This document shows, one piece after another, positions 31,653 through 59,442 of a stretch of DNA of 64,000 bases (position 1 is its first letter; the number at the start of each line of letters is the position of its first letter). This DNA is from Bolinopsis microptera (lineage: Eukaryota > Ctenophora > Tentaculata > Lobata > Bolinopsidae): the NCBI RefSeq assembly GCF_026151205.1, contig NC_087076.1, positions 3,371,902 to 3,435,901 on the forward strand, in the 5' to 3' direction. The notes beneath the pieces are model-generated. The model was given only the letters and a program-made list of their open reading frames with translations, was not told the origin of the DNA and did not search any database. The position numbers and the translations under genes were made by a program.

Positions 31653-32291
31653 TTACATGATGACACAACTATCTTGGTCTTGCGAAGAAGTTGAACAATC
31701 TGAAGTCGCGTTTTTCAAACTAGGTCCAGCTATGTCCCCTTTACCAGCGTTTGATTTGTCTTTCTTTAACAGGGTTTTCCCTCTATCGATACAGGCCATC
31801 GCAAACAATTTAAACTCTCCGTAATCAAGCTGTTGATCACCACTCACGTCGAAATCATTGAAGATATCTCGAATCGCTTTAAGTCCTAAGTTGAAAAGGA
31901 GGCCAAATATTTCAAACTCCTCGACATCAATGGTGGCTGAGCCGTCCTTGTCCATCAGATCGAAGACAGTGCGGGAGTGGTGGTAGATAAACTTCTTTTC
32001 CTCGTGGTCCTGGATTGAAACTAGGATGCAAACCATCAGATAAAACTCATTGTACTCGATGGAGGACGAACCGTCAACATCCAACATATCAAACACACGG
32101 TATATCTCTTTTCGGTTTAAGTCTGTGGCTTTTTTCATGAAAACGTAAAACTGAACGTCGTTGAGGGCCCCTGTTCTGTGTATATCAAGGAGGCTGAAAT
32201 ATGTGTAAACAATGCAAGCATTTCTACCACTGAGCAGACTGTACTCACGATCAAGGTGCATAAAGTTTAGTATCTTTGACTTGACCTTCAT
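31653..32291 (-). CDS. EFCAB9: EFCAB9-like EF-hand protein with C-terminal CaaX box
   Basis: An intact single-exon frame of 212 residues. In mammals EFCAB9 is a cytosolic calcium sensor on the CatSper channel of the sperm tail. The match to EFCAB9 runs from the first residues (MKVKSKILNFMHLDREYSLL, compare the family's MKLKQ...YLDK.YCLLS.RN) through TGALNDVQFYVF, VFDMLDVDG, YHHSRTVFDLMDKDG, and IFNDFDVSGDQQLDYGEFKL. EF-hand 1 (DIHRTGALNDVQ) is degenerate; loops 2 (DVDGSSSIEYNE), 3 (DKDGSATIDVEE) and 4 (DVSGDQQLDYGE) keep acidic residues at positions 1 and 12 and look able to bind calcium. The protein is slightly longer than mammalian EFCAB9 and ends ...DSCVIM, a farnesylation-type CaaX box, after a Lys-rich stretch (LLKKDKSNAGKGD). 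The gene is transcribed away from SND1. Confidence 0.9.
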   Translation of the reverse strand: MKVKSKILNFMHLDREYSLLSGRNACIVYTYFSLLDIHRTGALNDVQFYVFMKKATDLNRKEIYRVFDMLDVDGSSSIEYNEFYLMVCILVSIQDHEEKKFIYHHSRTVFDLMDKDGSATIDVEEFEIFGLLFNLGLKAIRDIFNDFDVSGDQQLDYGEFKLFAMACIDRGKTLLKKDKSNAGKGDIAGPSLKNATSDCSTSSQDQDSCVIM

Positions 32292-33627
32292 CTAGAAATA
32301 ATGAATCATCTTCAAGTACAAAGTATACAGTACTATAATATTCAATTTATTCATTTTCATTTTGTATGATAGTAACACTAACAGTACTACTAATTGACCA
32401 TGACGATCAGATCACTGCGATGATTGAAATTTGAATTCGTATAAAATCAGAAAAATATTCAAAAATCTAATAGAGCACATACAAGTACAAACCGCGATCA
32501 TTGCATAGTATCGGTCAATTCATGACATAACTTTATCTTAAACCAGGATTAGGCGTATTTTAACTGTGGCTCTGGTCATAATTCATATTTAGAAAACCGT
32601 AACCAATAATAATAAAACAATAACTAATGAACCGTAAGACTGTTTTTGAAAACAGACACTATAAATTAACCTGGTTAAATGTATCATTTACAACAATTAA
32701 TTGAAATTTGAAAACCCAACTAGCAATGGGGAAGCGAGACACAAAAGCCCAAGTAAGCTGAGCTGCGAAATGAAAAGAATGTTGCACGTGAGTGGCGCAA
32801 AACTTGTATTGTATTGTGTCACGTACAAATTAAATGCACGTGAAATGATTTTGCAACGAGCGTAGAGCGTGAAGTGTGGAGCAAAGCTAGGAGCAAGCAT
32901 TGGTATATACCGAATGGATTTTAGTAATTTTAATATTTATACTGGAATTAGTTCACAAATGAGTTATACTGTTACACATGATGGGTTTGTCCAAGGCAAC
33001 TTTCGCTCATTAAATCGTTGAAAACCATCAAATTTAAAGGGCTAAATTAAATATTTGAGCCGCGCAATGGGACATGACAACTCACCGAGCAGATTTTACT
33101 CCGCAAACGTTTGGCTAAATAATGATTTGTACGCCACGCGCGCACTCATCTTGATACCATCTGTTCGGCTCTTGCTGTCGTGTCAGTTTCACAGAATAAC
33201 TTGACACATTTTCTGCTACTAGACATTCCAGGTGCTGTCATTGCGTTCAGTTGACGGTCCAGTCATGCTGAACATAGCCTGCTTCATTTGTCCTTTCTTC
33301 TGAGCTAAACAACAGCATCCAAAACTGTAGACATCGTGCCCATATTTTGCAATACTTTACACATTTTCCCATTCTCATAATGTGCCATAACCTGACTTTC
33401 CATGGAGGCTGCCATGTATCACAAGTGGTGAATCATGCCAGTATCTTTAGTAAGTAACCTGCAGTCAACGATCACACTTCATTCATCGTTATTTACGTTG
33501 AAAATTTTGAAATAACTTGTTTTGTCCTTTTCCCCGCTTTCATATGTACATTGGAGTTATTTATAACCTGTTAAAGTAGCCCATTTAGTTGCTTGATTTC
33601 CCCCAACTAAATTGACTTTATCTAGCC
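32292..33627. promoter_or_regulatory. Divergent EFCAB9-SND1 intergenic region
   Basis: About 1.3 kb separates the start codons of EFCAB9 (minus) and SND1 (plus), so it must contain both promoters. A slightly GC-richer part (33115-33190) with CGCCACGCGCGCACTC lies towards SND1. I saw no clear TATA pair or coding exon. Confidence 0.45.
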
Positions 33628-36600
33628 ATGGACACAGCTCCTAAGACTCTTCACAGAGGATGGGTTGTCAAACAGGTAACTAGCATAACAACTTGTTTCG
33701 TCAAATCCCTGATATTCTTTTAGTTTTCCATAAGTTTAACTAAGATTAGGTGTAAAATTGTATGAGACTTGGATCTATTTATATCGGTATAATCACAGGT
33801 CAACTCTGGAGACACAATAGTGTTGAAGGGGCGGCCAAGAGGCGGACCCCCTCCCGAGAGAAACGTCAGTCTGGCGTACATTAGCGCACCCAAACTCGGA
33901 CGCAGACCCATCGGTAATGAAGAAGCTACTATTGATGAGGTGAGAATTGGAAAACTTTCATTCTGTTATTGTTTGTTAGTTTATAGAACCCGTCCCCAAT
34001 CTCGTATCGGAAAATGACTTAACTCAGTTCTGAGTGTGAATACGGGTGGTACCTGCAAGAGTTATTTCATTCTGTTATTTACGGCAGACCAAGTTAAATT
34101 TCGCAGTTTGGCAGTCTAACATAGCCTACCAATTACCTACATTATTTTGTAATAGACTCACAACCTAAAACTAAATTCTCTGCTTTTCAGCCGTATGCTT
34201 GGGAAGCTCGGGAGTATCTGAGGAAACTGTTGGTTGGCAAGGAAGTAAGCTTCATGGTGGAGCATACCATTCCCATCAGCGGCAGAGAGTGTGCCCTTGT
34301 TTACATCGGTATGTATTTTAGTGTTTGTAGTAGCAGTTGACTGATTAGAACTGATTCTGACAAATTTATGTTGTAAGGTTGCTCAGTTTAGGAAGCATCC
34401 TGTAACACAGAAGAAGTTTAAGTTATGGTAGATTCTATTATTTTGTAAGTTACATTAAATTCCACTGAAATCTGTGGTATTTTTGTCTTGACGCATTGAA
34501 TTCCAGGAACTGGAGAGAACTCAGAATGTGTCAATGAACTTATGGTTAAAGACGGCTGGGCTATCACTAGAAACAACAACAAACAAAACGAGTAATATTT
34601 CTTATTCCTATTTAGACTTTGAATATATTTCGAAAAGTACGATCTACTCATGCGCTTTAAATAACGTCCTATCCTCAGAAACCATGATTTAAGTTATGAT
34701 AACTAACCCTAATTTACAGTTAACTGGTTATTTGGCCTCTCTTACCTAGACTTACCTAGATTAGAACTGGTCGCTAGTTGTCAATATTTACAGTTTACAA
34801 TTAACTTTGTGCCCCGCCTACGCGTACGTACGTTAAGACATTTCTATGAGAAGAAAGATAACTTACGTTTTATAGCACAGGCTTTCTTTTTTTTTCGCTC
34901 TTTTGTCAAACTAGTAGGTACATTGATTAATTAATTAATTAATTCATCAGAGAGGTAGCAAAGTACTCGATGTGGATGATAGAAGCTCAGACCTCTGGGA
35001 TCGGAGTTCACAACGAGGATGGTAAATCTGCCGCCATCAGGGATGTTAAATGGGTTATTGAGGACCCCAGGATGTTATTCGACGAGCTCAAGGGGAAACC
35101 ACTCAAAGGTTTGTTTCTACAACTGATTATCATTGATTTGTAATTAAATTGTGTGGTTCTGCATACTTATATTGTGAGAGAAGTAATAACAAGTTGACAT
35201 TAAGTTTAGAACAAATTCATGCAAACAGTTATCCAGCGGAAATTTAATTGACACCGAGTGTTACAGTGGTACACCATTTTAACTTCACGTACAAATGTAT
35301 GGAATATAATATCTTGCTTCGTCGTAATTGGCGCATTTCCACTCAACGTTATACATCAGCATGGCAGGAACTACACAGATTGAACCGCACCAACAGGCAA
35401 CAGAGTGTACTCATGTATACATAAACCCCTCGCCCGAACTGTAAATACAGCTCTCTTCCTCTTCCTTACAAAACTTGTTTTTAAACTTGTTTTTAGAGAG
35501 AGAAGAGTTAAAACTCTTCTCTCTCTAAATATGTATCTGTGCTATGCAAGATTGGGTTCTCATTCTCTACATGGCACAGTGTAACTTGAATACGTTTTAC
35601 ATGCGCGATAGTGACACCGTGGTAGCTGCAATAAAACAATAAGTGTAATTTTACTTTTTCAATGCCATAATATGCTTCAATAGCGACCACTACACCGCCA
35701 CCGCATTAAACAGCTTTGTTTTGCACGGCTAATATTATACAGTAAATATACTGCGACTGTGACGTGGTATGTGTGTTAAAATGCGCTGCTGATCTGTCAG
35801 AACGTGCACACTGCCACGGTAGACTATCGTGTGTCACCTGGGCCGCATATTTCACATATTATGTATGAAATTTGCATATGTTACATGTAGATAATTGGGT
35901 AGGGTACACGTGTATTGTTCATACAGGAGGGCCCCTATAATGTTGGGTATGTTACCCTCTCCTCTCGTATTACACTGAAATTGTTATGATAAAGATAACA
36001 CTCTGCCCGGTTATCTGAGAGAACGCTTCTTTGAAAGTTTAGCCCTCAAGCTTCCACGTGTCGAATAGATTCCACTCTGAATATAATAGACTGAGGCAAC
36101 GCTGTTAGTACAAAGCCTCGTTAGAGGCTCAAATTACAGCTTATTGTTACTACTGGAACATAACGTATGTGTCGTGTACTTCTCTGAATATTTTTATGGG
36201 TACTTCATAGCTACATATTAACAAACTTTATTGGCGATTCTCTGAATATGAACAAGGTGGGGCAGTATCTGATTTCTAATTCCTCTAAAGTTTCATATAA
36301 ATGAAAAACACGACCCAGTTTTAACAGCTGTTTATACAATATACATTGGGCCTCTTCTCACAGTTAGCGATATTACACAACACAAACATTGTACTTCCGT
36401 TAATGTTAAATTCCCTTTGTTACAAAAAGTACAAAGGACAGCTACACAATCTTATATAAACATAGTTTAGACAAACACAAATTTCTTTAGAGGACATCTT
36501 AAGGTTTGTAAAATAGATGAGCGTATCACAAATGAGAAGGTCTACTTTCTTTACAAGTTTCACGAAACTTCTTAGAGCCGCATATATAATCTAGAATAAT

Positions 36601-39600
36601 ATCATTCGTGGAAGAATACTACGAAATTTGATCATCTCTTACTTATGTTACTCTGAAAATGCTTGTTTATCGTAATATATATTACTGACTGACTGATATT
36701 GGTTTACAGCTGTTGTCGAGTCAGTAAGGGACGGAGGAACCCTGCGTCTGATGCTGGTACCCACCATGAACTACATCACCCTCATGTTGACTGGAATCAG
36801 ATGTCCTTCTTTTAAACCTGATGGTGGTTCTGAGGACCATGCTGACGAGGTGAGATTAACATTTTTACATTTAGAAATTAAGAAACTGCTTTTTTATATT
36901 AGCGACAAGAGAAACGCCATTGTTGGAGACGTGAGGAGAGTGAGGACTCCTCAAACTACATTAAATTATTTCCTTCTGTAACGTCCTCAATAAATGTAAT
37001 AGATTTGTAGTGTTGTAATTAGTTTAAAACTACAACATAATTTCTGAAGCAGGAATGATTTTACTTTTTCCTAAGAACAGATTTCTCCCGATAGTTAGGC
37101 TAAAGTACTTTTGATTTTGCGGCCTACATGGAGTGGTTGTGTGATCATTAGTTTTATTATTTGGACCACATGGAGCCAAGATTTGTCGTTATCTTGATAA
37201 AATTTAAAACTGCATCATGAATACTGAATATGTTACAAGATGATTGATGATTATTCGTTAACTCCAAATATAATTTACATCAGCGAGACTGTGCTCTTAC
37301 TATTTAGATGTTTCCCAATCTTCCCATACAAATAAAAAGGATGACTACAGGTTAAACCATATTAGTGCAAATTTTATTGAACATTTTCGGCTCTCGCTTT
37401 GGGTAATGGTTAACAGGTTACAGGCTAACAGAACTGAATGGTAGCAAGATAACGTTATAAAACAGTTCACTTCTGGCTTGTTAGTAGGAACTGAAATTGG
37501 ATTTGCGTCTAACACACCCCCTATAGCATCCCAGTTGAGCAGTGAGTTAGTGATATTGAGATGGTTTAACTTGTAGTTTATCTGGGAACAGAGCGATAAC
37601 AAAGCCGACAAAACTTTATCATGCTTCCATAGTGGTGATCGAGCTCAGTTTGAGGTTGTTAACTCGCTGTTTTCATCCTGAATAAATCAACGTTGTAAGC
37701 TTGCTTTGACACGGTTGCAACACATTACACACCGTCCTTAGGGTTGTTTAATGGAAAGAGTCTCACAAGTGGTTCTTACTTACAAGTGGTAAAACTTAAA
37801 TGAATAGAATGATATTTATATTCGATATTTTCTATTGATAATCAAAATATAGGATGCCAGCCTTTGATGACTGTAGTTATAGAAAATTTTGATCGTCAAG
37901 AAGTAAAGGTGTAAGGTTTGTCCTGTGAAATATAGAGCCCAAATTCAGATTTGACCATATTGAGAGCTTACGCCTTACAGCTGTGCATCATTCACAAGAT
38001 AGTTGTAGCTACTGAGCTGCGAGATTGCGAAATAGTCATCATCAGCAGTGGTTCACTGATTGCGTAACATTTGTACATTATGTAGACCCACCAGATATTC
38101 TTGCCGCTGTGCATATTTTACTAATCCCACAGGAAGGCCAAGAGTTGTTGTTTGAGAGCTCTCTGGGTTTTAATTGACCTCGAGCTATAGGTTATTGGGC
38201 TTGGGTCCCCGAATTTAAAGCACCTGTCACCTTGTGGTTGCTAATGTACAGTGTATATGGGCGGGGTATGCAGGAATGCTCTTTAGTTCTGTTGGAATGC
38301 TAGAACAACTTAACTGAAGCAAAGTAAATGCGATTTAAATTTGTAACTATTTTAAGAATTTGTATTAATGCTTTTCATACAAAGTTACAACAAAGTCTTC
38401 ATGTTATAGTTTACCTCTTATTGATGTTGCATGTTAAAGAAGTATCTCAATTTTCCTAAATTTCAGGCACGATACGCTGTTGAAACTCGATTACTTAACA
38501 AAGACATCGAGATTTTACTGGAAGGTAACAATGTTATTACAATATGTTAAATTTATTATCGTTGGCAATTTCATTCAGAATCCTTCTATACTTGTCCATA
38601 GCGACTATCAAATAGATTTGGTAGATACGGCACGTGTACTAGTCCATCTTAAGACGAGACTTTTTAATCGAAAATCTTTCCCAACAGTACATACAGGATT
38701 AGACAATCGAATTAAAATATAGTTTTATGTCAATTCTGTTAAAAGTATTGTTAATATCTTAAATGGGATTCCAAAACACAAAAACGTGTTGTTAATATCT
38801 TAAATGGGATTCCAAAACACAAAAACGTGCAAAAACTGCAACCACATGGCCCTGTAAAAATATTTGTGTTATAAACAATCACTTAAAACTGATTTATGAC
38901 AACAAACCATTGCAGGTACATCTGGAGGTATGGGTAACGCCAGGAATCAGAACTTTGTCGGAAGTGTTGTCACACCAGTAAGTTCCCATTTCCGTCCTAT
39001 CAAATTAGTGCCACAGAGCAACAACAGTCACAAAGTAGCGCCCTGTAGGTGTGGTAGACGTCGCGCGCGAATCGTTCCTCGTAAGTAACAGACCTTACAG
39101 TCAGCCAAAGTCGTGACGAAAATTTCGCGCGCGTAATGCCTTAAGATTCTGAATTATCATACATGACGTACATTCTCCAGCATGGATAGTATTGCTATCA
39201 GCCATGTACGGCGTACACTTTTATACCATGCTTCTTTCAGGGAAACATTTCTTTGTTCCTGCTTAAGGAGGGTCTTGCCAAATGTGTGGATTGGAGCATG
39301 AAACTACTCACAGCTGATCCAGAGTCATATCGTGCTGCAACTAAACAAGCTAAGGCGGATAAGAAAAGACTGTGGAAGAACTATGAAGGTACACAATTTG
39401 TGCAGATTTCCAATTTCTGAAGTTTTACTCAGTACTGTGTAGGTCGAGTAAATAATTTCGTTGTGTCATGATTTACTGAACTTATTTATCCATGTGTAAT
39501 GTGTTTGTTATTTTCAGGACCTGTATGCACTGTGCCGAAAGATCAGAAAGAATTCTCTGGTAGAGTAACTGAGATTGTGAATGGTGAAGTATTAGTGATC

Positions 39601-42600
39601 AAGGTAGGAAGTGTCTACAAAAGAGTGACAATGTCGTCCATCAGACAACCTCGTCCAGCTGAAGGCACTGACGCTGGTCCCCCGAGCAGGGCTCTCTACG
39701 AAGTACCATATCTTTTTGAAGCTAGAGAATTTCTCAGAAAACGACTGGTAGGAAAGAAAGTGAATGCCACAGTTGATTACGTGAGGCCAGCTGCTAATGG
39801 GTATCCTGAGCGAGTGTGTGCTTCTATCTTCCTTGGTAATCAGAACATTCAAGAAGCAACCGTTAGCAAAGGTCTTGCTACAGTTGCGTGGCACAAACAA
39901 GACGACGATGAGAGAGCTGCTAACTACGATGCTCTTTTACTTGCACAAGAAAAGGCTAAGAAGGTATTAGATTGTCGATATAATTTTGTATTGAAATTTT
40001 CTTCTGACCATCAAATTTTTTCCGATTTGAATCTACAGACATTTTTCTTCAGATCTTTCAACCTATAATTTTTAGAACAAAGTTGGCGTCCACTACGGCG
40101 GAGAGCCACCTATTCACAAAGTAGCTGACCTCGCTGGAAACGCTGCCAAGAGCAAACAGTTTCTGCCTTTCTTACAGAGAATCGGTCGACTTCACGCCAA
40201 TGTGGAGTTCGTCGCCAGTGGCAGTCGCATCCGTGTTTACATTCCTCGTGACACGTGTCTAGCTACATTCCTTCTCAGTGGCATCAGGTCTGTGTAGTTT
40301 CTCTCTAGAGATGATGATTTTGAGAGCATTAATGTCTCACCAACTATCACGCTAAGATGTTTATCAGTGCGTCCACAATTTGTCCAATTCATGTCTGAAC
40401 TCTCAATACAAAGAGTTTTGAATGTTTACTTCTTAGTTGTCCGAGAGCAGGCCGACCATCTATCAAAGGACAGCCGGCTACACCTGCCGAACCCTTCGGC
40501 GATGAAGCTCTTGAGTTTATCAAAGATCAAATTATGCAGAGAGAAGTCGAAATTGAAGTTGAGAGCTGCGACAAAGCAGGTTTGCAGTAGATTTGATCTT
40601 GGTTGTTTGAATTAAATTGGTACAGTTTCTTATCATGAATACTGAATAGGACCGTCTACCTCCCTTTATTATAACTGAGTCTAATAAAAACAAAAAGAAA
40701 TTGTTTTTTTTTGCACAAAATATTTTTGTGACTTTGAGCTGATTATTTGCAGGTAATTTCATCGGTTATCTGTTTGCGGAAGATAAGAACATGTCTGTTG
40801 AACTTGTGAAAGAAGGCTTGGCCAAAATGCACTTCACAGCAGAACGCGGAAAATACTTCGATCATCTTTCCAGGTGGGAGGTCATTTTGTCATTTCGCTC
40901 AATTTTCAAAGTCAATCAATGCCTTTTAATTGTTCGTTAATATTTCTTCATTCCTTACTTAATCATGTCAACCCTACAGAGCTGAAGCAGACGCTAAAGC
41001 AGACGGAAAGAGAATGTGGAAAGACTACGTTGAGACAGTCGTAGAGAAAGAAGAATTAACAGAAATCTCAGACAGCAATAAAGCAGAATCTACTCCAGCA
41101 TTAAAGGTTAGTTTGCTTGACAATGTGGTCTTCGGAGAGTGGCGAAAATTTACTGAAATTACCTTTCATTTTTAAATAGACACTTTAACATGTGTTATTC
41201 CTCACAGATCTATATTTACAGGAGGTAGTTGTAACGCATTTAGAAGATTGCAGCAAACTTTGGGTACAGAAGTGCGCGGACGGACCCGGTTTAATATCAC
41301 TAATGAACCAAATGAGAGCAGATCTGATCAGCGATCCTCCACTAGCTGGCAGTTTTACTCCTCGCAACGGAATGTTGTGCGCTGCTATCTTTAGTGAAGA
41401 CAGTAACTGGTAAGTTATATACCTTTTCCTCTGGAGTCTGGGTAATGGTATCTAGACCTGCGAGACTGTTTTCCTGGAGTCTGTATGCACATTGCTCAAT
41501 AAAATTGTGTATTTTACCTCCATTTTCATTCAAAGTGTAACAAACTCAACCACACCTCAGGTATAGAGCTAAAGTACTGAAAGTTCACAAAGATTCAGAC
41601 TTAATAGATGTTTTATTTATTGACTACGGTAACCAAGCTACAGTGTCCTCAACTGGTGCAGCGCAGCTCACTCCACAGTTCTCCAGTGTTCCCGGAGCCG
41701 CGGCCGAGTGTCAGCTGGCTTTCATAGTCCCTCCTGAGGACGAGGATTGGAAAGAAGAGAGTCTCAGAGAAGTTCAGGTCAGTGAGAGTAGTTCAGGTCA
41801 GTGAGAGAAGTTCAGGTCAGTGAGAGAAGTTCAGGTCAGTGAGAGAAGTTCAGGTCAGTGAGAGAATGGGGTAGGGTGGTCTGGGGGACTGGGGCGTTCA
41901 GATAGTTAGGGGTCGTTCACATATTACGTAATCAATATATCAATTTTTACCCCCCTCCCCCCTCCGTAATCAACCGTAATCAAGACCCAACCCCCCCCCC
42001 CCCTGACAGCAATATTACGAATCATGGCCTGACCCCCCCCCCCCCCCCCCCCCCCCATTGACTTTTTTCCCTGGAAATCATTCTTCTTTACGTTTCATGC
42101 TACCCTGATCATGATGAGCCGAAATCATTGTTATGATATCCGGCCAAGCACCTTTCAAACTACTTGCTATAATGGATATCCGATCAATTTCTAAATTTTA
42201 TCACTATCATAATGAAATTGAGTGGAATTTGAATTAACATATTGTAAATTGTTATTATTCTAGAGGATAAAAAAGAAAATGTTTATTACGTAATCAACCA
42301 TCAAACCCATCCCCCCCCACCCCCCCCCCCCCCCCCCCCCCCCCGTAATCAACCGTACGCGTAAGCATTTGGAAACCCCCCCCCCCTCCCCCTCGGTTGA
42401 TTACGTAATATGTGAACGACCCCTTATATTATGAAATCATTCATGTATATTATCTGTTTTATCAACTATGGAGTTGTACCTTACAAAGAATTGGAATTAT
42501 GAAAATGAGTTGCGGAATTATGAAAGCGAATTGTTTGTAAATGTCATCGGTGCAACTTCCCCGACCAGTTATAAAAGGATTTCAAGCCGATTTATAGATT

Positions 42601-43351
42601 GACGTCATCACTTCCTTATAAATCAAGAGGCTTGCATATAATGAACATATTGACACGGGTGCAGAGTTGAGTCTGTACGGAACCTAGTAGTTTCAGATCC
42701 TTGTTTAACTTGCCGTACAGCAAGGTCATCCACTATTTTGTCGTTTAATCTTGATTGCAGTTTAATCGTTGTGATCAATTTGCTCAACTTTTGACGTTAT
42801 TTTAAATCCTCTCACGTTCTATACTAGGTTGAATTTAAATATTTTATCATATCATTACTTTCCTCATTTTCAGATGCTGACCCAAACTAAGCTGGTAATG
42901 ACAGTAGTCGGTAAGAACGGAAGTGCGGATCTAGTCAGTCTAACATCCAATGGAACTGACATAGCTACTCATCTTCTTTCTAATGGTCTTGTAGAGTACG
43001 AGAAACAGAGAAACAGAAACAAATATGGAACTCTGGTGAGTTCAGCTCAATCTTTCATGCTACTCTGATCACGTGATATTTACTGAATCCTGTTACATTC
43101 TATACTGTATGTAGTGTGTACTATATGATTTATTTAATTCTACTCCACTGCACTGGATCCATTCCCAAACAAATAAATTGATTCTAATCGTTGTTTTGAG
43201 TCTATTTGTGCATCGACATTTATAAGACTTTTCATTTCAGATGTCCACGTACGAAACTGCAATGGCAGAAGCCAGGAAAAACCGAAGAAACCGTTTCCAG
43301 TACGGTGACTTTACCCAAGATGACGCCAAAGAATTTGGATACGCTAAATAA
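33628..43351 (+). CDS. SND1: Tudor-SN / staphylococcal nuclease domain protein 1
   Basis: Complete gene, 18 coding exons: 33628-33675, 33799-33939, 34191-34308, 34507-34591, 34951-35108, 36710-36849, 38467-38524, 38916-38977, 39241-39388, 39518-39963, 40076-40287, 40437-40579, 40753-40873, 40980-41106, 41222-41409, 41561-41777, 42874-43035 and 43241-43351 (TAA). All phases join and give 894 residues (human SND1: 910). SND1 acts in RNA metabolism, splicing/RISC complexes, stress granules and piRNA-linked processes. Four tandem SN-like domains are visible ([11 protein letters not shown]-type start [58 protein letters not shown]), then a Tudor domain (WYRAKVLKV...VLFIDYGNQ) embedded in a fifth split SN domain, ending [18 protein letters not shown], the conserved family C-terminus. 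Exon 12 uses the acceptor at 40436, giving [11 protein letters not shown]. Confidence 0.97.
35493..35528. repeat. Hairpin with 17-bp perfect arms in SND1 intron 5
   Basis: TTAGAGAGAGAAGAGTT and its exact complement are separated by two bases. Confidence 0.85.
38750..38829. repeat. 41-bp tandem duplication in SND1 intron 7
   Basis: Two copies of a unit starting GTTAATATCTTAAATGGGAT lie back to back, apparently a recent duplication. Confidence 0.85.
41778..41866 (+). repeat. 19-bp tandem repeat carrying five copies of a splice donor
   Basis: The exon-intron junction AGTTCAG|GTCAGTGAGA of SND1 exon 16 is repeated with a 19-bp period, giving GT donors at 41778, 41797, 41816, 41835 and 41854. 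Only the first keeps the SND1 reading frame open; the others shift frame or run into a TGA. Confidence 0.92.
41909..42423. mobile_element. PIF/Harbinger-like MITE in SND1 intron 16
   Basis: A 515-bp element with perfect 27-bp terminal inverted repeats beginning GGGGTCGTTCACATATTACG, flanked on both sides by TTA (41906-41908 and 42424-42426). A 3-bp TWA duplication plus a G-rich terminus is typical of PIF/Harbinger derivatives. The interior has several long C-homopolymers and no coding frame. A remnant of the same terminus (ATGTGAACGACCCC) occurs at 48972-48985. Confidence 0.85.
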
Positions 43352-43880
43352 GTTAACTTACATCAGGAACAAACTTGTTTTAAAATTCATCAGTTTTACG
43401 GACATACATATTTATTTAATTGTGGGTAATTTTGATTTTTACTGGCGACCTTTTTAAATTTATCCAGCCAAACACCAATTTGATGATGGCCCCTTTCTGT
43501 CCTGTTGATGACATGATGTTTTCTGTATGATACAAATTTGACTTGAGGTATATAGTATTGATTTGTTAAAATTTAAGATTTAGATATTTCCAAAATTCGA
43601 TTTTCACTTTGTTTGAGCGGTATAGAACGAATGTCAGGACTGGAGGCAATGAAAAACTAGTTAACAACAACTTAGCTCGAAAACTAACAATTGTCCTTGT
43701 CACACTTAGTTTCCGAATTGTTGGTTTATTTTACGAAAAACGTGTATCAATGATCAAGTAGTAAATGAAATGAAATTGCGACTTGAGACAAGTGACTAAC
43801 TGGTCACAATCACATTTCTCAATTAAAACAGCTGACCTGACTTTTTATTTATGCAATGTCACAACCATAAGCTACGACAG

Positions 43881-44177
43881 AATTTGACCATTGTTAATGG
43901 TCTGGCCCGGCGCGCGCAACTTCGAATGTTCGAAGAAATTTAGACGAGTTTGGAGTAACAATAACATCCGTCAACGACAGAAGCAAAGTTTATGTTGTCA
44001 ATTTTTAATGGTAGTTAAATTGAAATTTTATCGTGTGGCGGGGTGGCGCGCAAAAAGCTAAAACATAAAAGTACGTAAAATACAAAATATACGTTACGTG
44101 TTATAATTTTAGTGTTGCGTGTTGACGGATGTTACTCATCTAAATTTTTTTAAATGTTTTAGAAGTAGCGCGCGCCG
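43881..44177. repeat. Fold-back repeat with GC-rich termini
   Basis: AACATCCGTCAAC near 43961 and GTTGACGGATGTTA near 44119 are inverted copies, with weaker complementarity outwards to GGCGCGCGCAA (43909) and AGCGCGCGCC (44166). The left end, TTGACCATTGTTAATGGTCT followed by GGCCCGGCGCGCGC, recurs inverted at 53759-53793, so this is an interspersed family. Confidence 0.6.
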
Positions 44178-45945: not shown

Positions 45946-46179
45946 TTCGAATAAATGTATAGATGCTGCATTGAATTCATGAAGATATCATTCGTTTTGA
46001 GCAATCATTCCCTTAGCTCCCCCGTTCTTTGATTGTTTCAAAGAAGTAGTCATACTACAATATGTATTGTTTAGTTACATCTATTGCCAAGTTATTTAAG
46101 CCATTTCATCTCTAGTAGATTCAAATAATTTCTGTAATTCTGAATTATGTTGCTGAACAAACTTGACAATCACCATTAG

Positions 46180-46671: not shown

Positions 46672-47010
46672 TGAAATGAAATGAAATACTACTACTTTGT
46701 CGGAACTAAGTCCGATCTACGCCAGATAACCCCCTCCATATATCCCTGTCCCGCATCAGGGTTCACAGTTCCTCTTTTGAGTTTGTCCCAATTTGCTTCA
46801 GTAACATAGACAAGTAGCTTTGTCTTGGTCGGCCTTGCTGTGCTCTACCATGCATAGGTTTCCATAAGACTAAATCACTGGCAAGTAGCTCAGGATGTCT
46901 GATGCAGTGTCCTGCCATTTTTAGTCTCCTGCTTCGTAACTTGTTTGACAGCCTTGGTAGACTACCATACAAAGTTATATTGCTGACTTTGTCCTTCCAT
47001 GAGATACTTA
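46672..47010 (-). pseudogene. LINE reverse-transcriptase 3' end, degenerate
   Basis: On the minus strand, SWKDKVSNITLYGSLPRLSN, then RRLKMAGHCIRHPELLASDL, GRAQQGRPRQSYLSMLLKQI and TLMRDRDIWRGL match the C-terminal tail after the RT domain of many invertebrate non-LTR retrotransposons (family motif RRLRFAGHC...GRRRRGRP...L..DR..WR). An in-frame TGA interrupts it just before TLMRD, where the family usually has Arg, consistent with CpG decay of CGA. A short TTTCA-type microsatellite at 46672-46686 follows, like a LINE 3' tail. Confidence 0.75.
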
Positions 47011-47163
47011 TGGACGTATGTCACTCATTATTATGTATCACTCTCTAACATCTTGTCCTCACTACAAATATTACCACTTCTGATATAATAATGTTTTTTT
47101 GTGTCTTCTTTGGCTCAGGCATGGCTCCAGCTCAAAATCTTTGGGTGGGTGCAGCTTGGCGCA

Positions 47164-47187
47164 CGGGGGGGGGGGGGGGGGGGGGGG
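47164..47187. repeat. Poly-G tract
   Basis: A run of about 22 guanines between the LINE fragment and the 47.3-kb element. Confidence 0.9.
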
Positions 47188-47332
47188 CCCTAATTTTGGA
47201 ATTTTACTCTCCTAACGGTATTTTAATATCTCCAAAACAGTCTCAATTGATTACAGAAGTCAATTGACCCTTAGTTTATACAAAATTTGACAATTTTTGT
47301 GTGAAGATTTTCAAATCGTTTGGGTGGGTGCA

Positions 47333-47930
47333 ACAGGAGGGGCTAAGTGCAAAGAAACTGCTGCTAACTGCTGCTCACTGCTGCTCACTGCTACTAACTG
47401 CTGCTCACTGCTGCTCACTGCTGCTCACGGCTGCTCACTGCTGCTCACTGCTGATGTCGCGCGCGTTCCCATAGCAGCAGTGAGCAGCAGTGAGCAGCAG
47501 TGAGCAGCAGTGAGTAGCAGTTGCGCGCGGCGTGCGTTGTGCAGTAAAGACACGCATATAACTGCTGCTAACTGCTGCTCACTGCTGCTCACTGCTGCTC
47601 ACTGCTACTAACTGCTGCTCACAACAGCAGTGAGCAGCAGTGAGTAGCAGTTGCGCGCGGCGTGCGTTGTGCAGTAAAGACACGCATATAACTGCTGCTA
47701 ACTGCTGCTCACTGCTGCTCACTGCTGCTCACTGCTACTAACTGCTGCTCACTGCTGCTCACTGCTGCTCACTGACAGCAGCAGTGAGCAGCAGTGAGCA
47801 GCAGTTAGTAGCAGTTAGTAGCAGTGAGCAGCAGTGAGCAGCAGTGAGCAGCAGTGAGCAGCAGTTTCTTTGCACTGAGCAGCAGTGAGCAGCAGTGAGC
47901 AGCAGTTTCTTTGCACTTAGCCCCTCCTGT
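47333..47930. mobile_element. Fold-back/MITE-like element built from CTGCTGCTCA repeats
   Basis: About 598 bp with terminal inverted repeats ACAGGAGGGGCTAAGTGCAA continuing AGAAACTGCTGCT. Internally, 9-10-bp ACTGCTGCTC units run in one direction and then in the complementary direction (GAGCAGCAGT) several times, with two copies of a GC-rich spacer containing GCGCGCGGCGTGCGTTGTGC at 47523 and 47652. It appears to interrupt a LINE ORF1 fragment at 47930. No clear target-site duplication is seen. Confidence 0.7.
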
Positions 47931-48585
47931 GACCCGAACCTACACGGTGGAGCCATGCCTGCTTTGGCTATCTGTTTCATTTCCAAGACCAACCGCTGAT
48001 GGATAGCTCGATCTTCAGGTGATCGATCTGGAGAGATGAAAACAGTCTTATGATCTTCACACAGTCTCAGCTTTTTGGCATTTACTAATATCTGATGAAC
48101 GGTAAGTTAGAATTACCTAGCGAAACTTTGACTGGTCTCGTCTTGTTGGCTGATTTTCTCCCAACCCAGATAGCTTCAAAACGTGGTTTTTCTTCAATCT
48201 GCTGAAAAATCACGGTAACTTTATTGCACAGTTCCTCTTCATCAGTCTCCTTCAAACCAAATATGAGCACATTCCTACTGCGATCCTCTTCCGATACAGC
48301 ATTCTGTACAACCTTTTTTAAACTCTCTTCTGCAAGCACAGGTGCATTTTTAGTCACAGCTTGACTGTATGACTTCATCTCAGCTTGGACAGTGTCTTGA
48401 ACGGCGGTCTTGACGGTGGAGTGCACGGATTCCAACTGCTTCGATTTAGTTTCCAGAAGTTCAGCCTGCAGCTTGATAACAGTACTTTGCGATCGGATAA
48501 GATCGCTCTTCAACTCCTCCATATCTTTCTTGTTATCAAGAAACGTACTTACATGATTATCGGTAGTCTGATACGCAGAATACAA
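47931..48585 (-). pseudogene. Non-LTR retrotransposon ORF1-like fragment, frameshifted
   Basis: The minus strand reads a coiled-coil region, then an RRM-like block (RSRNVLIFGLKETDEEELCN ... IWVGRKSANKTRPVKVSLGN) in one frame to a stop at 48085. In another frame it continues with ILVNAKKLRLCEDHKTVFIS, then PDRSPEDRAIHQRLVLEMKQ, to 47931, where the CTGCTG element begins. This order (coiled coil, RNVLIFGL, RP.KV.., L.NAKKLR...FISPDR) is typical of LINE-associated ORF1-type proteins of marine invertebrates. The frame change near 48100 and the insertion show it is dead. Confidence 0.75.
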
Positions 48586-49030
48586 ATTACAAATGTTTTA
48601 CTGAAACTGACTTCACTGAAAACTCAGATTTATTGTCACTAACAGTTCGTAGCTTCCGCGAGTTCAGTGATCCAACCGTTATAGACCTCATACTCTTCAG
48701 TAATGTAGGTAGAATAAACTGACAATCTTTGAAGAGTATCCATTTCCTCCATCGTTTACTTGTACTTGTATAAAGTAAAAACACAGTACCAGCAAAATGG
48801 CAGTTGTTATGTAGCGATAAAATAGAGATAAGAGCTAGATTATCAACACGTAACAAAAACTGTAAAACTGTATCATAATATTATGATGCTTTTAACATCA
48901 TCTGTTGTGATATACATGACAAAGGGTTGGAAATGTACAGTAACCTTACTATATTGCAATTACACAATATTATGTGAACGACCCCTAACCCCTTATAGGC
49001 TCTATAAGCATTGAATAATGATAACTGCAG

Positions 49031-50583: not shown

Positions 50584-50797
50584 GACTTGTGTTTCATATG
50601 CCAGGTTGAACAGGTTTGTGTGAAAATTTTGCTCGCAAATATAATTATTATACATATTATCTCGATTTAATTTTAAGAGTATGAGAGGTTATTCTTCTTT
50701 AACAATACGAATTTCCCTAGACGTTAGAAACGAAAAAGGATAGTATGATTCAAGGAAAAGATAAAAGTTTCTTCGTCGATTTCGCAACATACTATCT

Positions 50798-51112
50798 GTG
50801 GACATCTACAGAAATCGTCAGGATCTGTGCAACATCGATCTTAATCCTGATTCGCACATGAACAAGTGCCCTGTTCTTAACCCTGAGAGTCTCGGAAAAT
50901 ATCTCTATAGCAAGCTAGGTAGATATCACAAAACATGTCGTTTGAGGTACAGCAACTCGAGGGTGAAACAATTGAAGGGTAAATTATCTGAAGCTGTAAG
51001 TTTAAAACCTGTCTCTAAGGCAGGTTTTAAAATGGAAAGACACGTGTCCACGCACGACAACACCAATGCTGCATTAATGAGTGCAGGTATTGACGCTGTA
51101 CGGACCTTTTAA
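50798..51112 (+). pseudogene. Transposon-type protein fragment (tentative)
   Basis: A 104-codon frame containing LGRYHKTCRLRYSNSRVKQL, reminiscent of the W/YHK.C..K/RYN motifs common in uncharacterised transposon-associated proteins of invertebrates. The stop after VRTF is followed in frame by more protein-like sequence (LEQENVLPELYLVSDPK), suggesting a decayed longer gene. The assignment is by resemblance only. Confidence 0.3.
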
Positions 51113-53155
51113 CTGGAGCAGGAGAATGTTTTACCAGAACTGTACCTCGTGTCTGACCCGAAGCTTAAGTACAATGACTATGTGACGTCTAATTTATCTG
51201 AGAACGCTGCAAACTCCAGCAATGTTTAATCTGATCACATCAGTTTTCAGAAAGACAATGTCGGTAAGACGAGTTTGTTTCGACAGCAGAATCGTATCTA
51301 ATCTTGCCGCAACAATAGATGCGGATAGAGATGATAACACTTTAACAAAGACAGCACTCATAATATAAAGGAGATCAGAAAAGAAATCTTTCAATGTAGA
51401 AACGAATTCTATCAGCTATGTTCGATTTACTGATCGGTGGCATCTGTAGAAATATAGTGTTTATGTGGATTAATCTGTTAAAGCAGGGCTATTGTATCAT
51501 TTTAACATTAACTTTGCATAGTGATGATACTTTTATTGTGTCTCTTGTGATTATCTATTTCTACAGTGTTACGGTACCACGAGGTTTCTGGCGCAGTAAT
51601 GCGCTTTTGAGCAATATACGTCACGCGCCGCAACCGAATCAGATTTAAGTGCACTTTTTTCATTGTAAACACTACATACGACGCGCAACACGTTCTACGA
51701 GGTCGAAATTTTCGAGGTCTCTAACTCCGGAATAGAGCAATATTTAGACGATCTGACACTTTCTGGGGCTTAAGCAACCTAAGAGAAATTAGGGGAACAA
51801 CTCAGAAAAAATTTTTAGTCGATATTCCGGTGTCTGTAGATGTCCGAAGTTTTGGCAGTAAAGTGCTCACAACACAGCTTCTGAAGGCTCTAGAAGGTTC
51901 CCGATACCGTCAGAGTGTTCAGTACACTCCATTCTATCATATAAGAACCCTAAAAGAAGTCCCAGAGCTCGAGCAGAGAAGTGCGATATTTGCCCGTAAG
52001 AGCCTCTACTATTATACGAAATTCGGTAAAAAACCCAAAATTGCCATATTCAGGTGCCTTAAAAACCATGTTAAAATTGAGTTAGAGATCTGAAACTTTG
52101 CAGGGCGTCTAGACGTTGACCAAATCAACTGTAAAAAAAATTTCGTGTTTCAGGAGTATCGGGAAATGGGTTTTCTGGTACCCCTGTTTTACGATAGATT
52201 GTATTTGTCGTGATACATATATTCAGGGATAGACTCTTTGCCAGTCAAATGTAGTCAATTGTAGCCTGAATTTAAGTGTCCGGAGATTCAAAAGTATAAA
52301 AGATACAGCAATTTCCGACCACAGGTCTTAAAGATAATTGTTTACACTTCAGTTTCAATTATATCAAAAAATAATTTAACGTAATCATCACCACTTGATG
52401 ACGTCATCAAATTAAGTGTTTTTAAAACTTGATTTTTGACAAAATAACAACTTTTCAAACTGATTTTACACCATTAAGGAGTAATTTTATTCAAAATCTG
52501 AGGACATTTTTACCTTAGATAATTGTTCAAGCATTCTGAAAATCTACCGGAAAGTTTCCCTACCTTGCTCCTTCATAAAGATATTTGCCATTGAAGTTAG
52601 TGCTTTTTTGAAAAATTATTTTATAAAAACGTCAATTTTGCGATTTAGTATTCTCTGGTGTTGGGCTATCCCTTGGGTTGTGGAGCTCAGTTCTGCTTTC
52701 TATAGGTATAAATTGTGTATTAGGCTAGTTTTAAAGTTAAAAATCTAAAAGTTGCACACGTGGGGACACGCCCAACTTGATTAAAAATTGCTAAAATCAC
52801 TGAAAATTGCTGTTTTTACCATTTTCTGTAAACGTCGGTGTGCCGTTGTGATTGGACGCAACGTCCGCTCATAGTTTGCACGTGCGAAAGGTGATAATTT
52901 TGCTCATTCGTGATTTCGAACAAATTCTGCTTTACCACGACAGTTCAATGTCATTATATATAAATTTAATGCCAACTTGAATGAGTATAAAGTGGCAAAT
53001 TCAGTCAGTGATCGACCGATATGCTTACCCAAACACAAGGAAATGTTTTCAAAGGAAAAATTTTGAAATCGTTGAAACTTCCTCCTTATTAATGAAGATA
53101 TCAGTTTATATTTCGACTTTATAAAGTACCCTGACATTAATCAAAAAGCGATGAT
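51113..53155. other. AT-rich region, probably transposon debris
   Basis: No exons seen. Short homopolymer-rich blocks (for example 52380-52660) have no open frames of interest. A plus-strand frame at 51830-52093 has no recognisable motif. Confidence 0.35.
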
Positions 53156-53661
53156 ATTTGACCAAAACCCATAATCATGGGTAGAGTGGACCGCTGCCAG
53201 TGTCTCTCTTTCCCAAACAAAAGGAAATGATATTAATTTGATTGACCGTTTTCAAATGCAAAATGATACCGAGAATGAAATCGGTCGCTCGCTTTTCCCA
53301 GTCATTTACAAATGTAATAGATTAAGAAGAACTACCATACCCGAAGACAGCTGTACTCGGCAATAAAGATTCAATAAACTTCAGCTAATTCACTAACTAC
53401 CACCCTTATCCCGAAATACTAGGTATCGACCCGAACGCAACCCAAAGAGATTATTACAGCATGTGATCGATGTAATTTATCGAAACCTATTGCAATTCGT
53501 ATAAGCCGTGAATGAATGGGAAAAGCGAGCGACCGATTTCATTCTCGGTATCATTTTGCATTTGAAAACGGTCAATCAAATTAATATCATTTCCTTTTGT
53601 TTGGGAAAGAGAGACACTGGCAGCGGTCCACTCTACCCATGATTATGGGTTTTGGTCAAAT
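53156..53661. mobile_element. Fold-back element with about 154-bp inverted arms
   Basis: Arms 53156-53309 and 53508-53661 are almost perfectly complementary; outer ends read ATTTGACCAAAACCCATAAT. The loop of about 198 bp has no coding frame. The length and near-identical arms fit a MITE or fold-back transposon; the duplicated target site is unclear (TA-rich flanks). Confidence 0.8.
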
Positions 53662-53758
53662 TAACATTAAGAATAAAGATTTGGCGGAATGACAGGCTGA
53701 GCGCGGCCCAGTAATAACGCATCGCGCTACAAGGCCCGATGGCACGTGCTACGAAGTA

Positions 53759-53793
53759 GCGCGCGCCGGGCCAGACCATTAACAATGGTCAAT
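53759..53793. repeat. Inverted copy of the 43.9-kb repeat terminus
   Basis: About 34 bp (GCGCGCGCCGGGCCAGACCA followed by TTAACAATGGTCAA) are the reverse complement of the segment at about 43884-43917. Confidence 0.85.
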
Positions 53794-54560
53794 TTGAGTG
53801 CTGAGGCAAGCGCTATCAAGATTTGCGCGCAATCTATACATTCACACGTGCGCATGAAAATTGCTACATTGTTCATCCATGCACATGATCCAGCTTTTGT
53901 TTCGATTTATAGGCTACGGCTTGCTTGTTGCTGCTTGCGTCGGTTTTTGATTTATTTATTTTCGATACTCTTGGAGTTGAACATTTTGTTTTCTTGAACA
54001 CATGAGGTTCAGAATCAAGCTGCATTAAGTAAAGGTCGTAAATTTGGAAACAGCCAAATTTCTGAAAACCGAGAGCAAAATTATGCTTATGCAACGGGAT
54101 TCGTTGGAACTTTTAAGCTTTATTCTCCTTAAGACTAAGAGCATCACAAACAAACAATTTTATCGATCATCTGTCGTTTTAATTTTATTTTGCAGGGGAG
54201 CCTGGCCACGAACATTTGCGAACTGTGTGAATATTCAGCTTTAAGAAAGGTATAATGGTCGCATCTAGGATAGCCATCATAAACAAGTTAAGCCTTGAAA
54301 TAAACTGAGTTATGGTTTGTAACAAGACAACAGCAAAAAATTATAGTTTATTTACAACAAGATCGCCAGTTTCTGATTTAGTTGTCAGTTGTGGAACATA
54401 CAACAAGAAAATTGAAAATAATCTTGTGCGAGGGTAGGGACCCAGATGTCGTTTCTAACCCAAATAAACTTTAAGGAGGCTTCTCATCCCAGCCTTCTAG
54501 AGTTCATCACAAGTAGCAACCACCTTAACGAATGAAGATCCTTGACACCCAGACACACCC

Positions 54561-54751
54561 TATCGGCGAACAAACTTTGGATATAATCTTACATGCTCCC
54601 GAAGGAATCCCTGGTTTCGTTTATGGTCTTTCTCGAATCTCATCGTCACCATGACCAGCACTTTCACTAGATCACCAGCTCTTTCACTGAAGTCATATCG
54701 ATTCCATATATCGTCATCGATTCCAGGATTTCGTTTTTGGCGCAATGCCAA
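54561..54751 (-). other. Protein-like open frame without start codon
   Basis: About 62 codons, containing NPGIDDDIWNRYDFSERAGD and MRFEKDHKRNQGFLREH, end at a good donor (CAT|GTAAGA). There is no ATG in frame and no AG acceptor just upstream, so a normal exon model fails. It lies head-to-head with CATSPER1. Confidence 0.18.
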
Positions 54752-54860
54752 TAACCGGTTATTATTTAAAAAAATTAAGTATGCAATATTTCCACATTTT
54801 CATCATGACGTATATACTATATCATAAAACCAAACTAATGAGACAATTTTCATAGAAAAG

Positions 54861-57800
54861 ATGGGCGATGACAAGAATGACCGACGCCGGCGGAGTACTC
54901 TAAGAGTAGAAGCGACTGGAACCTACTACAGTCCAGTCATTCCAGCTGGAAGCCAACGTATAAGCAATGGGGGAGCAATGAGGGAGAGTCGCATTCAAGG
55001 CAGCATTCGACCTCGGGGTCGATCTCGGGGCGACACTCTCATTCCAATACACCCACTCTTCAACAAGGGGAAAATACGACAGTTTCTATATGACGTTGTG
55101 GAGGATAAGCGGTTCCATTCCTCCATGTTGTTTATTATCCTGACTAACACCGCCTTGATTGGTCTTCAGACCGTCCCTTCAGTTCATAACAAGATTGGGT
55201 GGTATCTCAATCAACTGGATGTGTTTTACCTTGCAGTGTATTTTGTCGAGTGTATCCTCAAGCTTGGTGCTATCCATTTCAGTTATTTTAAAGACAGATG
55301 GAACGTGTTTGATTTCTTCATCGTTATAACCTCGCTAATTGATTTCGTATGGCCCATGATCATGGAGGACCAAAACTTATCTCTCGACACCGACCTTTTC
55401 AAGATTTTCAGACTCCTGAAAAGTTTCAGGGCACTGCGAGCATTGCGGGTAATCCGCACAATTCAGTTCCTGAAAAATCTTCAGATCACGGTGAACGCGA
55501 TAATCCAATCCATTCCTGCTCTGGGAAGCATCATTATGCTTATTGGACTGGTTCTGTACATATTCGCTATTATCGGGAAAGGACTGTATAAAGACGTCGA
55601 TCCCATACGTTTTGGAAATATAGGTTAGAGAAATTATAGATTACTAAAATTGTATAATAAAACAATCATTTTACGATTATGTAAATAATTTTATAGTAAT
55701 AATCAATTAAAATCTGAAGATTGTGAACTTTAAAAAGGTTTCACAACGACCTAAAATCTGCAGGGTTTGCTGCGTTTAGTCTGTTCCAACTGATTACACT
55801 AGACGACTGGTTCCTGATGTACTCGGAAGTTCAACAGAAGCACCCTGACTACTGGCACATCCTCATCTATCTTGTTACTTTCATTGTCTTGGAGAACTTT
55901 ATCTTCATCAACCTCTTCATCGCCGTTATCGTTGATAACCTGGAAAGGTTTGCAGAACACCGTTTTTTACATTTGCCATTCTTATTTGGATAGTTTTGTA
56001 AAACCAGAAAAGATGGAGTAGAGAGGAATAATCATATGTACCGCAACAGTTTACAACTGACATGTGTCAAAACTAATAGTGTGACTTTACTTTGAGCGGA
56101 GCCGCGACCCCTTACGGGACTACCTGAGCTTTTAAAATATTTTAAGCTTTCTGTGGACTTTCTGGACTTGAAAACTGTAGGGGAGGTTACACAAATGAAA
56201 CTTCTCCTGATCTGCTGTGCCCAGAAACTATCACCAAACTACTGTTGTTAAATGTTCACCCAATGTTCCTTCACACAGTAGATACATCAATATGTCTTAT
56301 ACAGAGCCATGTGACGTCAATCGTGTTGCATGGTTAAAAATACTGGAACGGATCACTTTTTAAAATCAGGAGGCAAGAGTTGGACCATCGAGCTACATCA
56401 TACATATCTGTAAATAATGTGTGTGTTTCTCTAATTTCTCTAATATCTACAGACTGCCTTTAATTTCCCTCCGTCGTGAAAAGGACGTATTCACATGTTG
56501 CCAGCTGACTTATTGCAAGCTTGTACGTGGGATTGTACTTGGCCTTCTGCTGAATAGTTCACTTGAAATTAGCCTGATTCTTTTCAATTGATTAATTGAT
56601 TGCTCGAGGCAAGCTGTTTGTTGCATATTTATAATTAGGAGTAGGAGTAGGAGATCTAGGTACATATGTACAAACTTTAGGACCAGCTTGTTTTGTAATT
56701 GAGACTCTATTACTAAGCTATAGTACTATAGTACAACATCTTTTAGTCACATACAGACATAAAACCAAGGCAGCTGCACTGTGAAGTAGTATCTTGGCAT
56801 AATGGCAACTCACTTTGCTTTGTAACGATCATTATATGCATTATTTGCTTTCCTTAAAACTATTTCGATTATAAAGTACGATTAAAATGTAACCGTTTCG
56901 ATAGCATCGTAATTTTATTTCTATTCAGGATAACTGAACATCTAGCTCTGGCTGTTCCAGCTTCATGTTATAAAGATCGATCATGTGTTCTTAAAACTTT
57001 GCAATAGTTGCAAGTCTCATTAATGAAAATGCCTCAATGCTTGTTATCATTCACAGCATTCTTCACACTGTCCACAATTTGACATAATGTCTTGTTACTT
57101 TGTTTAGATTTAATGTTGATCATGTCTGAGGGCCGGTAGATTAAGGAATTCTCATTTCTCTCGCCCATGCTTAACAAAAAGGCCCCGTTGTGTTTACTCA
57201 TACTACTGCTTCAGTACTCGCTGTAAAATATTTCTGTCGACTTTTTATTCTCGAAAAGCATTATCCATTATCAATAGAAACACCACCATGTTTCGACTCG
57301 TGTTTCGAAATTGTGTGAATTTCACCTTAATTGAGCCACATTTATGAATGAACGGATGGCGATAATTAAATCATCGGCACATTATCTACCACTTAATTAA
57401 GCATTCCTACTCGTTACCTTAACGCATCTACATGCCCTTCAATTATTTAATTTCTCGAATCTAAATTGAATCTGTGGTCCTGGAAACACGGAATAAAACC
57501 AGAAGATTGCTAAAACTACCCCTACTCCCTGGTACTCCCTCCCGTACTATCAGCCCGATATCATGTCAGGAGCTCCTTCCCCGTACGTGTAGCTATACGT
57601 GTGATAAGTGGGATATACACCACTATATTACCACTATGGTTCCACACAGTGTCCAGCTCTGAGCTTCTAACACCTTGTCCGGTTTAACGTGTGGTTTGTG
57701 CTCGGTGTTTTAGTGTTTGTTGGTACCTGGTGGAAACCACCACCTCCTTCACACATTAATTATTATTCAATTTTCGCCTGGTTCTATCCCATACCTGCCA

Positions 57801-59442
57801 GCTTTCTACTTCGTTCCAAAATCCAATATTCACCTAATCATTTCATCGCAGGGAGTATTCATACTCTAAACTTCTTCATGGTGTGCCACAGTCGACTGTA
57901 GCACTTAACCTCTAACTATCGTTGTTGAAGTTCTCTTTGATGGTCTATGATCAAAGACATTTTTTTAATAGTAACCTTTAATGAGATATTGTAACATATC
58001 ATTACGGTTTAATGAGTTAGAAATTGATTTGTGTTTGTAATTGTTGTCTCCAGATTCTAGAAGGTTAATGAGCTGTCTCTATTTCCTCCCTACTTCTCTC
58101 TTGACTTTGACAAAATAGTCTGATTTAAACTTGCGGTTAAACTGCAATCAGAATTTACACTTCATTGAAGCGTTGTAAAGTTAGTCATCTTTTCTGTTTC
58201 TAATTTCCACCACACCACACCACACCACACCACACCACACCACACCACACCACACCACACCACACCACACCACACCACACCACACCACACCACACCACAC
58301 CACACCACACCACACCACACCACACCACACCACACCACACCACACCACACCACACCACACCACACCACACCACACCACACCACACCACACCACACCACAC
58401 CACACCACACCACACCACACCACACCACACCACACCACACCACACCACACCACACCACACCACACCACACCACACCACACCACACCACACCACACCACAC
58501 CACACCACACCACACCACACAACACAACACAACACAACACAACACAACACAACACAACACAACACAACACAACACAACACAACACAACACGTCACACTTA
58601 ACCCCACTGCACCACACCACATTTCAGAGCTCACGCTGCTGCCAGAGAAGAATCGTTGCAGGTGTCGGCTAGTGTAGAGTCGATGGACTCGAACGAGGTG
58701 GTCACAGCCATGGCTCTCGATGAGTAAGTTTAAGATATATTTCTGTTGAACAACCGACTCAATTAACTTGATTTGATTTGCAGCTTGTTAGGTAGGTAGG
58801 TTGTTGCTTCACTGTTAGAAATATTCAGCTGCTCAGCATATAATGTTTTCTAAAGTACACCAGAATCTCTCTTTCAGTCAAATATTGCACGTTTATTTCA
58901 CGTCTTATTGATCGAAAGATTGGTTTCATGTTTTTGGTACAATTCATGCAGGATCTGGATGAGTGAATCGAATCAATAACTTTCTCGATGATTCCAATTT
59001 CAATTTGAACCAATGTTTTGAAATACAATCTCGCATTTCACTTATTCGGATCGGTTGTGTGTCCGTTGACTAAACATTTTATCGGACTATTTGATGGACG
59101 GGTAGTCCGTCCAACTGTCACGTGCACGAGCAGATCAAACGCCACAATTTCAACCTTCATTTTATTTCAGGAACATTCTGTTTTTTCTCAGCAAACTTTT
59201 TTTCACGCAAACTTACATTTCACACCAAATCACACGAAACTTTTAGAGATAAGATATTCGACGAAGTGCCCCCCTCGGGTACAGTGGAATTCTACTACGA
59301 GGGCCGGAGAGACAACGTTACCAAACATATCGCCCGTTACACTGAACTCATGGCAACCCTCGAATTCTACATAGAGCGCAGTCAGAGTCACACCAGAAAC
59401 CTTAACAAACTCCTCGAACTAGCTAAACGGTCAAGTCATTGA
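54861..59442 (+). CDS. CATSPER1: CatSper1-like sperm cation channel pore subunit
   Basis: Four exons, 54861-55623, 55764-55947, 58628-58723 and 59247-59442 (TGA), with phases 1, 2 and 2, give 412 residues. CatSper1 forms the heterotetrameric pore of the alkaline- and depolarisation-activated sperm flagellar calcium channel with CatSper2-4. S1 (SSMLFIILTNTALIGLQTV), S2, S3 (WNVFDFFIVITSLIDF), S4 with basic residues every third position (FRLLKSFRALRALRVIRTI), S5, the pore FSLFQLITLDDWFLMY and S6 (NFIFINLFIAVIVDNLER) are all present. The TLDDW filter with its aspartates and the following Tyr match CatSper1 best among the four paralogues. The C-terminus is a short helical coiled coil (YTELMATLEFYIERSQSH). 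The basic 80-residue N-terminus lacks the His-rich region of mammals. I see no frame disruption. Confidence 0.93.
55948..58627 (+). other. CATSPER1 intron 2 (2.7 kb)
   Basis: Non-coding AT-rich intron ending in a large pentanucleotide array. The open frames within it (57474-57901) show no conserved features. Confidence 0.7.
58207..58590. repeat. (CACAC)n then (AACAC)n pentanucleotide array
   Basis: About 62 uninterrupted copies of CACAC to 58520 are followed by about 14 copies of AACAC to 58590. The array ends 37 bp before the acceptor of CATSPER1 exon 3. It creates long artificial minus-strand frames of CGVVW-type repeats, which are not genes. Confidence 0.98.

Follow-up and report, generated by a model that had tools for sequence, protein, structure and literature searches.

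The locus considered here raises the question of whether the close linkage of two genes, CatSper1 and EFCAB9, whose products are partners in one complex, reflects an ancient arrangement, selection for joint expression or merely the reshuffling of gene order. In human the two genes are on different chromosomes. By analogy with mouse, CatSper1 would be one of the four pore-forming six-helix subunits of the flagellar CatSper calcium channel, and EFCAB9 would be situated below the pore, where it would bind calcium and tune channel opening. The window, by which we mean the whole 64,000-bp stretch of Bolinopsis microptera DNA that was analysed (C5:3371902-3435901, 38.8% GC), had been predicted to contain an intact gene of each kind, with SND1 between them.

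According to the literature, CatSper1-4 and CatSper-beta are present in Nematostella (PMC2572835) and Ctenophora is listed among the groups with CatSper (PMC6660944). Three ESTs of Pleurobrachia pileus have been classed as CatSper1 and 2 (PMC2572835), and CatSper gene counts of 6 for Pleurobrachia and 1 for Mnemiopsis, a member of the same family as Bolinopsis, are given (PMC4685580). EFCAB9 is reported to cluster with CatSper genes by co-evolution (PMC12638846; PMC10055175). No description of an EFCAB9-CatSper1 linkage was found in the titles and abstract openings of the EFCAB9/CatSper1, EFCAB9/SND1 and CatSper-synteny literature.

Identity of the two linked genes

The EFCAB9-like gene is intact, as predicted, in the form of the uninterrupted open frame listed in Table 1. 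In a phmmer search of its product against the PDB the first two positions are taken by EFCAB9 chains (155.7 and 152.5 bits, among the best 60 of 212 matches) and the third-ranked protein, which belongs to another family, obtains only 41.8 bits, leaving EFCAB9 ahead by more than 110 bits. The gene is present as a single copy, the genome search returning the gene itself plus only two weak matches of 29.7 and 29.1 bits. A retrocopy reading was considered because there is only one coding exon; the 300 bases that follow the stop codon show no poly(A) tract, and long open frames are also common among the channel genes of this genome.

The CatSper1-like gene had likewise been predicted to be intact, and a model of four exons, in which every intron begins with GT and ends with AG, gives a protein of 412 aa with its stop at 59442. 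It contains one Ion_trans domain, split over exons 1 and 2, and its pore sequence, TLDDW, agrees with T-x-D-x-W, the CatSper pore motif; exon 4 was without a match in the Pfam search. Scored one domain at a time, CATSPER1 is the nearest relative. For exon 1 it obtains 104.5 bits, against at most 73.0 bits for each sodium-channel repeat in four Nav alignments, and for the pore together with the C-terminus 46.2 bits, against at most 21.3 bits for each Cav3 repeat in three alignments and 37.9 bits for the best single-domain channel. When the whole protein is compared with single-domain proteins the scores are 158.0 bits for CATSPER1 and 125.6 bits for the best other channel, among the best 60 of 135 PDB matches; CATSPER2-4 are absent from these 60. 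Four-repeat Cav and Nav channels do stand above CATSPER1 in the whole-protein ranking, since several repeats add up in such scores. When 74 loci, of which 68 derive from Ion_trans matches, were searched with CatSper1 by tblastn, the highest score was 70.5 bits, in a multi-repeat channel cluster. The family identity of both genes, on which the original prediction depends, thus holds.

Acceptor-like sequences are found at both starts, TTTCTAG directly before the EFCAB9 ATG and TTTTCATAG five bases before that of CatSper1. Judged from the sequence, these sites would fit either an intron in the 5' UTR or spliced-leader trans-splicing, which has been reported for ctenophores. Intron 2 of CatSper1 contains, at 58210-58589 of the window, a long CCACA and then CAACA pentamer repeat.

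Table 1. Positions in the window of EFCAB9, SND1 and the CatSper1 exons
Feature	Position	Strand	Basis
EFCAB9, single coding exon	31653..32291	-	open frame, 212 aa
SND1 (Tudor-SN) exons, approximate limits	33793..43454	+	domain matches; outer exons by eye
CatSper1 exon 1, N-terminus and S1-S5	54861..55623	+	gene model, Pfam Ion_trans
CatSper1 exon 2, pore (TLDDW) and S6	55764..55947	+	gene model, Pfam Ion_trans
CatSper1 exon 3, follows repeat-bearing intron	58628..58723	+	gene model
CatSper1 exon 4, C-terminus and stop	59247..59442	+	gene model, coding scan

Layout of the locus and its neighbourhood

The EFCAB9-to-CatSper1 span, 31653-59442, amounts to 27,790 bp, in agreement with the predicted 28-kb linkage, and the start-to-start distance is 22.6 kb. 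SND1 lies between the two genes, as had been claimed, in the form of SNase and Tudor exons on the plus strand at ∼33.8-43.4 kb, and this domain content is the same as that of SND1 / Tudor-SN. The SNase matches fall at 39472-40065 and 40399-40587 (two frames) and the TUDOR match at 41541-41801 (one frame). The best PDB match of frame 39514-39984 is SND1 (137.6 bits); for frame 41541-41801 CG7008-PA is at the top (39.3), followed by SND1 chains. Frames 33793-34014 and 36697-36978, read as SND1 by eye, are without a Pfam match. With 60 long frames of the retrieved loci as its training set, a hexamer coding scan gives four above-threshold signals between EFCAB9 and CatSper1, all of them in frames read as SND1, one (41541-41801) by its Tudor domain and the other three by eye.

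Two further observations concern the minus strand of the window. At 17894-19101 there are acidic, serine-rich frames with a good hexamer score and no Pfam match, and at 47759-48597 frames that resemble, by eye, ORF1 of a LINE retrotransposon, with a sub-cut-off Pfam match only.

Co-regulation of the two genes, also proposed in the original prediction, is not favoured by this layout. EFCAB9 is on the minus strand and CatSper1 on the plus strand, with EFCAB9 transcription running away from CatSper1, and because the strands are opposite the pair does not form a simple operon. EFCAB9 and SND1 are divergent (head to head), and the nearest frame assigned to SND1 begins ∼1.5 kb from EFCAB9. Any sharing of a promoter by EFCAB9 would therefore be with SND1 and not with CatSper1. 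No words of at least 12 identical bases are shared, in either orientation, by the 1.5 kb upstream of EFCAB9 and of CatSper1. Neither of these upstream regions contains an RFX X-box-like site at up to one mismatch, an absence that means little since only ∼0.5 sites are expected per 1.5 kb; the window as a whole has 23 such X-box-like sites.

Nor do the flanks, sampled as eight frames from 40 kb (20 kb per side) compared with Pfam, name any obvious sperm gene. Four of the eight frames are above the cut-off, of which two are exons of anoctamin, one is an EF-hand exon and one encodes an SRCR protein; one of the remainder gives an anoctamin dimerisation match below the cut-off and three are without a match. 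The EF-hand exon in locus L077 (8321-8608; C5, ∼3.444 Mb) is located 8 kb downstream of the window.

Two inverted repeats were noted in the window. The element at 53156-53661, ∼0.5 kb in length, has 154-nt arms that are 99% complementary and spaced by 198 nt, and ∼1.2 kb separate it from the start of CatSper1, which lies downstream. The other, at 62381-63326, is near perfect, with 342-nt arms (99% complementary, spacing 147 nt) and additional outer arms of 71 nt, and has the appearance of a MITE of large size or of a foldback element, built of GCGCTTATAAGCGC-like units.

Other CatSper-related genes and the chance of linkage

If the pair were the remains of a sperm-channel cluster, as the original prediction suggested, then the genomic positions of other CatSper genes are of obvious interest. 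The C-terminal exons of CatSper-beta are found on C1, at 11.79 Mb. A CatSper-like single-domain channel with pore TAEGW is present on C8 at ∼16.89 Mb (L066, 429-1930), and two tandem CatSper-like single-domain channels, with pores TAEGW and TADSW, on C10 at ∼1.00 Mb (L049, 429-7131). The top CatSper chain is CATSPER3 in each case, with 60.2 bits for the C8 gene (best 60 of 111 matches), 42.7 bits for the first C10 gene (49 of 49 matches, pore piece only) and 57.5 bits for the second (best 60 of 112 matches), scores obtained with queries that are exon pieces joined without a splice-site check and that include, for the second C10 gene, nine residues from a wrong reading frame. Cav or Nav chains outrank CATSPER3 for all three, as do other single-domain channels in two cases, those of the C8 gene and of the second gene on C10. 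There is no more than moderate support for these three being CatSper genes; their assignment is weak and their subtype uncertain, and they are termed CatSper-like only.

The three CatSper-like genes emerge from a genome search with PF00520, which gave 150 scored matches among 256 candidates, from which 60 Ion_trans regions and eight more loci were retrieved (L067 cut to 10,000 bases); by hand count, ∼17 single matches were left aside, as was the greater part (∼40 matches) of five multi-repeat clusters. The CatSper-gamma profile PF15064 has no match in the genome, a result that a control shows to be no proof of absence. A search of the genome for the nuclear-receptor DNA-binding domain (zf-C4), run without a positive control, yielded none, which fits ctenophores; the cnidarian origin implied by the original prediction is not supported.

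With the located members, which make up only part of the CatSper set, on C1, C8 and C10, no other located CatSper member is near the EFCAB9-CatSper1 pair. Moreover, a comparison of lobate and cydippid ctenophores, which gives 160-260 million years as the separation of Hormiphora from Bolinopsis, describes chromosomes that correspond one to one and gene order that is not conserved (PMC10232365), so that the 28-kb linkage need not be old and an ancestral sperm-channel cluster is unlikely.

It is also possible to ask how often such proximity would occur by chance. The genome comprises 232 contigs. In a model with a genome size of 264.65 Mb and a distance of at most 28 kb the probability is ∼0.0002 for one named pair, ∼0.3% for any pair among six genes and ∼0.9-1.4% for any pair among 10-12 channel genes, figures that overstate the significance because the pair was noticed after the fact and not predicted.

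Explanations of the linkage and comparison with the mouse channel

We favor, with a probability of roughly three in four, a reading in which CatSper1 and EFCAB9 are ordinary single-copy orthologues and their linkage is neutral and specific to the lineage. Shuffling of gene order would have produced the 28-kb arrangement, with no operon, shared regulatory domain or ancestral cluster involved, and the two proteins would be expressed in sperm and assemble into one complex. Counting against this reading are the low a priori probability of so close a named pair, the weak assignment of the three CatSper-like genes and the single CatSper gene listed for Mnemiopsis. As the two proteins are partners in one complex, selection or shared chromatin may have played a part. 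A selected co-localisation within ctenophores, by which one male-germline expression domain has been kept, is in our view rather improbable: it would account for starts only 22.6 kb apart, with SND1-like coding signal alone above threshold between them, and for a proximity with a small a priori probability (for a named pair), but it sits poorly with the divergent orientation, with upstream regions that have no long words in common, with the inverted-repeat element of 53156-53661 in the CatSper1 upstream region and with named flank genes that are not sperm genes. A more speculative proposal, which we consider unlikely, is that a minimal pore-sensor pair is kept in one small domain, with an EFCAB9 that has three complete EF-hand loops, that the sensor of mammals lost loop ligands and came to need CatSper-zeta and ARMH2 for its calcium and pH tuning, and that the linkage would be what remains of selection for expressing both genes together in the male germline.

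The notion that the pair is the relic of an ancestral metazoan cluster of sperm-channel genes, lost in other animals, draws on the position of ctenophores as the proposed sister of other animals, based on ancient chromosome-scale linkages, but the same source notes that gene order is unconserved even between two ctenophore orders (PMC10232365) and the other located CatSper genes are dispersed over three contigs; we regard it as very doubtful. Least probable of all is that one of the genes has been misidentified, CatSper1 being some other single-domain or Cav-like channel or EFCAB9 some other calmodulin-like EF-hand protein. The high whole-protein scores of four-repeat Cav and Nav channels would point in this direction, but the per-domain scores favor CATSPER1 over the four Nav and three Cav3 chains compared, the best other single-domain channel falls well below CATSPER1, and the lead of EFCAB9 is large.

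The linkage itself is of importance only if it is conserved. The results support the presence of both CatSper1 and EFCAB9, intact, in a member of the group proposed as sister to other animals, and the more useful clue is the difference in calcium loops between ctenophore and mouse EFCAB9. In the literature CatSper-zeta is described as conserved in mammals only (PMC8147001), though the conservation predicted elsewhere for an ARMH2-EFCAB9-zeta subcomplex extends to non-mammals (PMC12638846). The complete loops of the ctenophore protein amount to a testable prediction about the CatSper sensor before CatSper-zeta.

The ctenophore CatSper1 shares with mouse CATSPER1 (PDB 7eeb_A and 9ubw_A) a single six-helix domain, an arginine-rich S4, a T-x-D-x-W pore and an alignment that extends through S6 into the C-terminus. 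Its N-terminus is short and arginine-rich, with one histidine, and differs in this respect from that of mammalian CATSPER1, which is long and histidine-rich. The N-terminal layout of EFCAB9 is common to the ctenophore and mouse proteins (7eeb_I and 9ubw_I), and in an ungapped stretch of 172 residues the ctenophore sequence is identical to 7eeb_I at 72. The EF-hand loops were scored by the four ligand positions 1, 3, 5 and 12, a rule devised for the present comparison. Loop A is degenerate in both species, while loops B, C and D have 4/4 of the scored ligands each in the ctenophore protein and 1/4, 2/4 and 3/4, respectively, in mouse 7eeb_I. Since all three ctenophore loops are complete and no matching mouse loop is, the sequences suggest that the ancestral sensor may have been calcium-competent.
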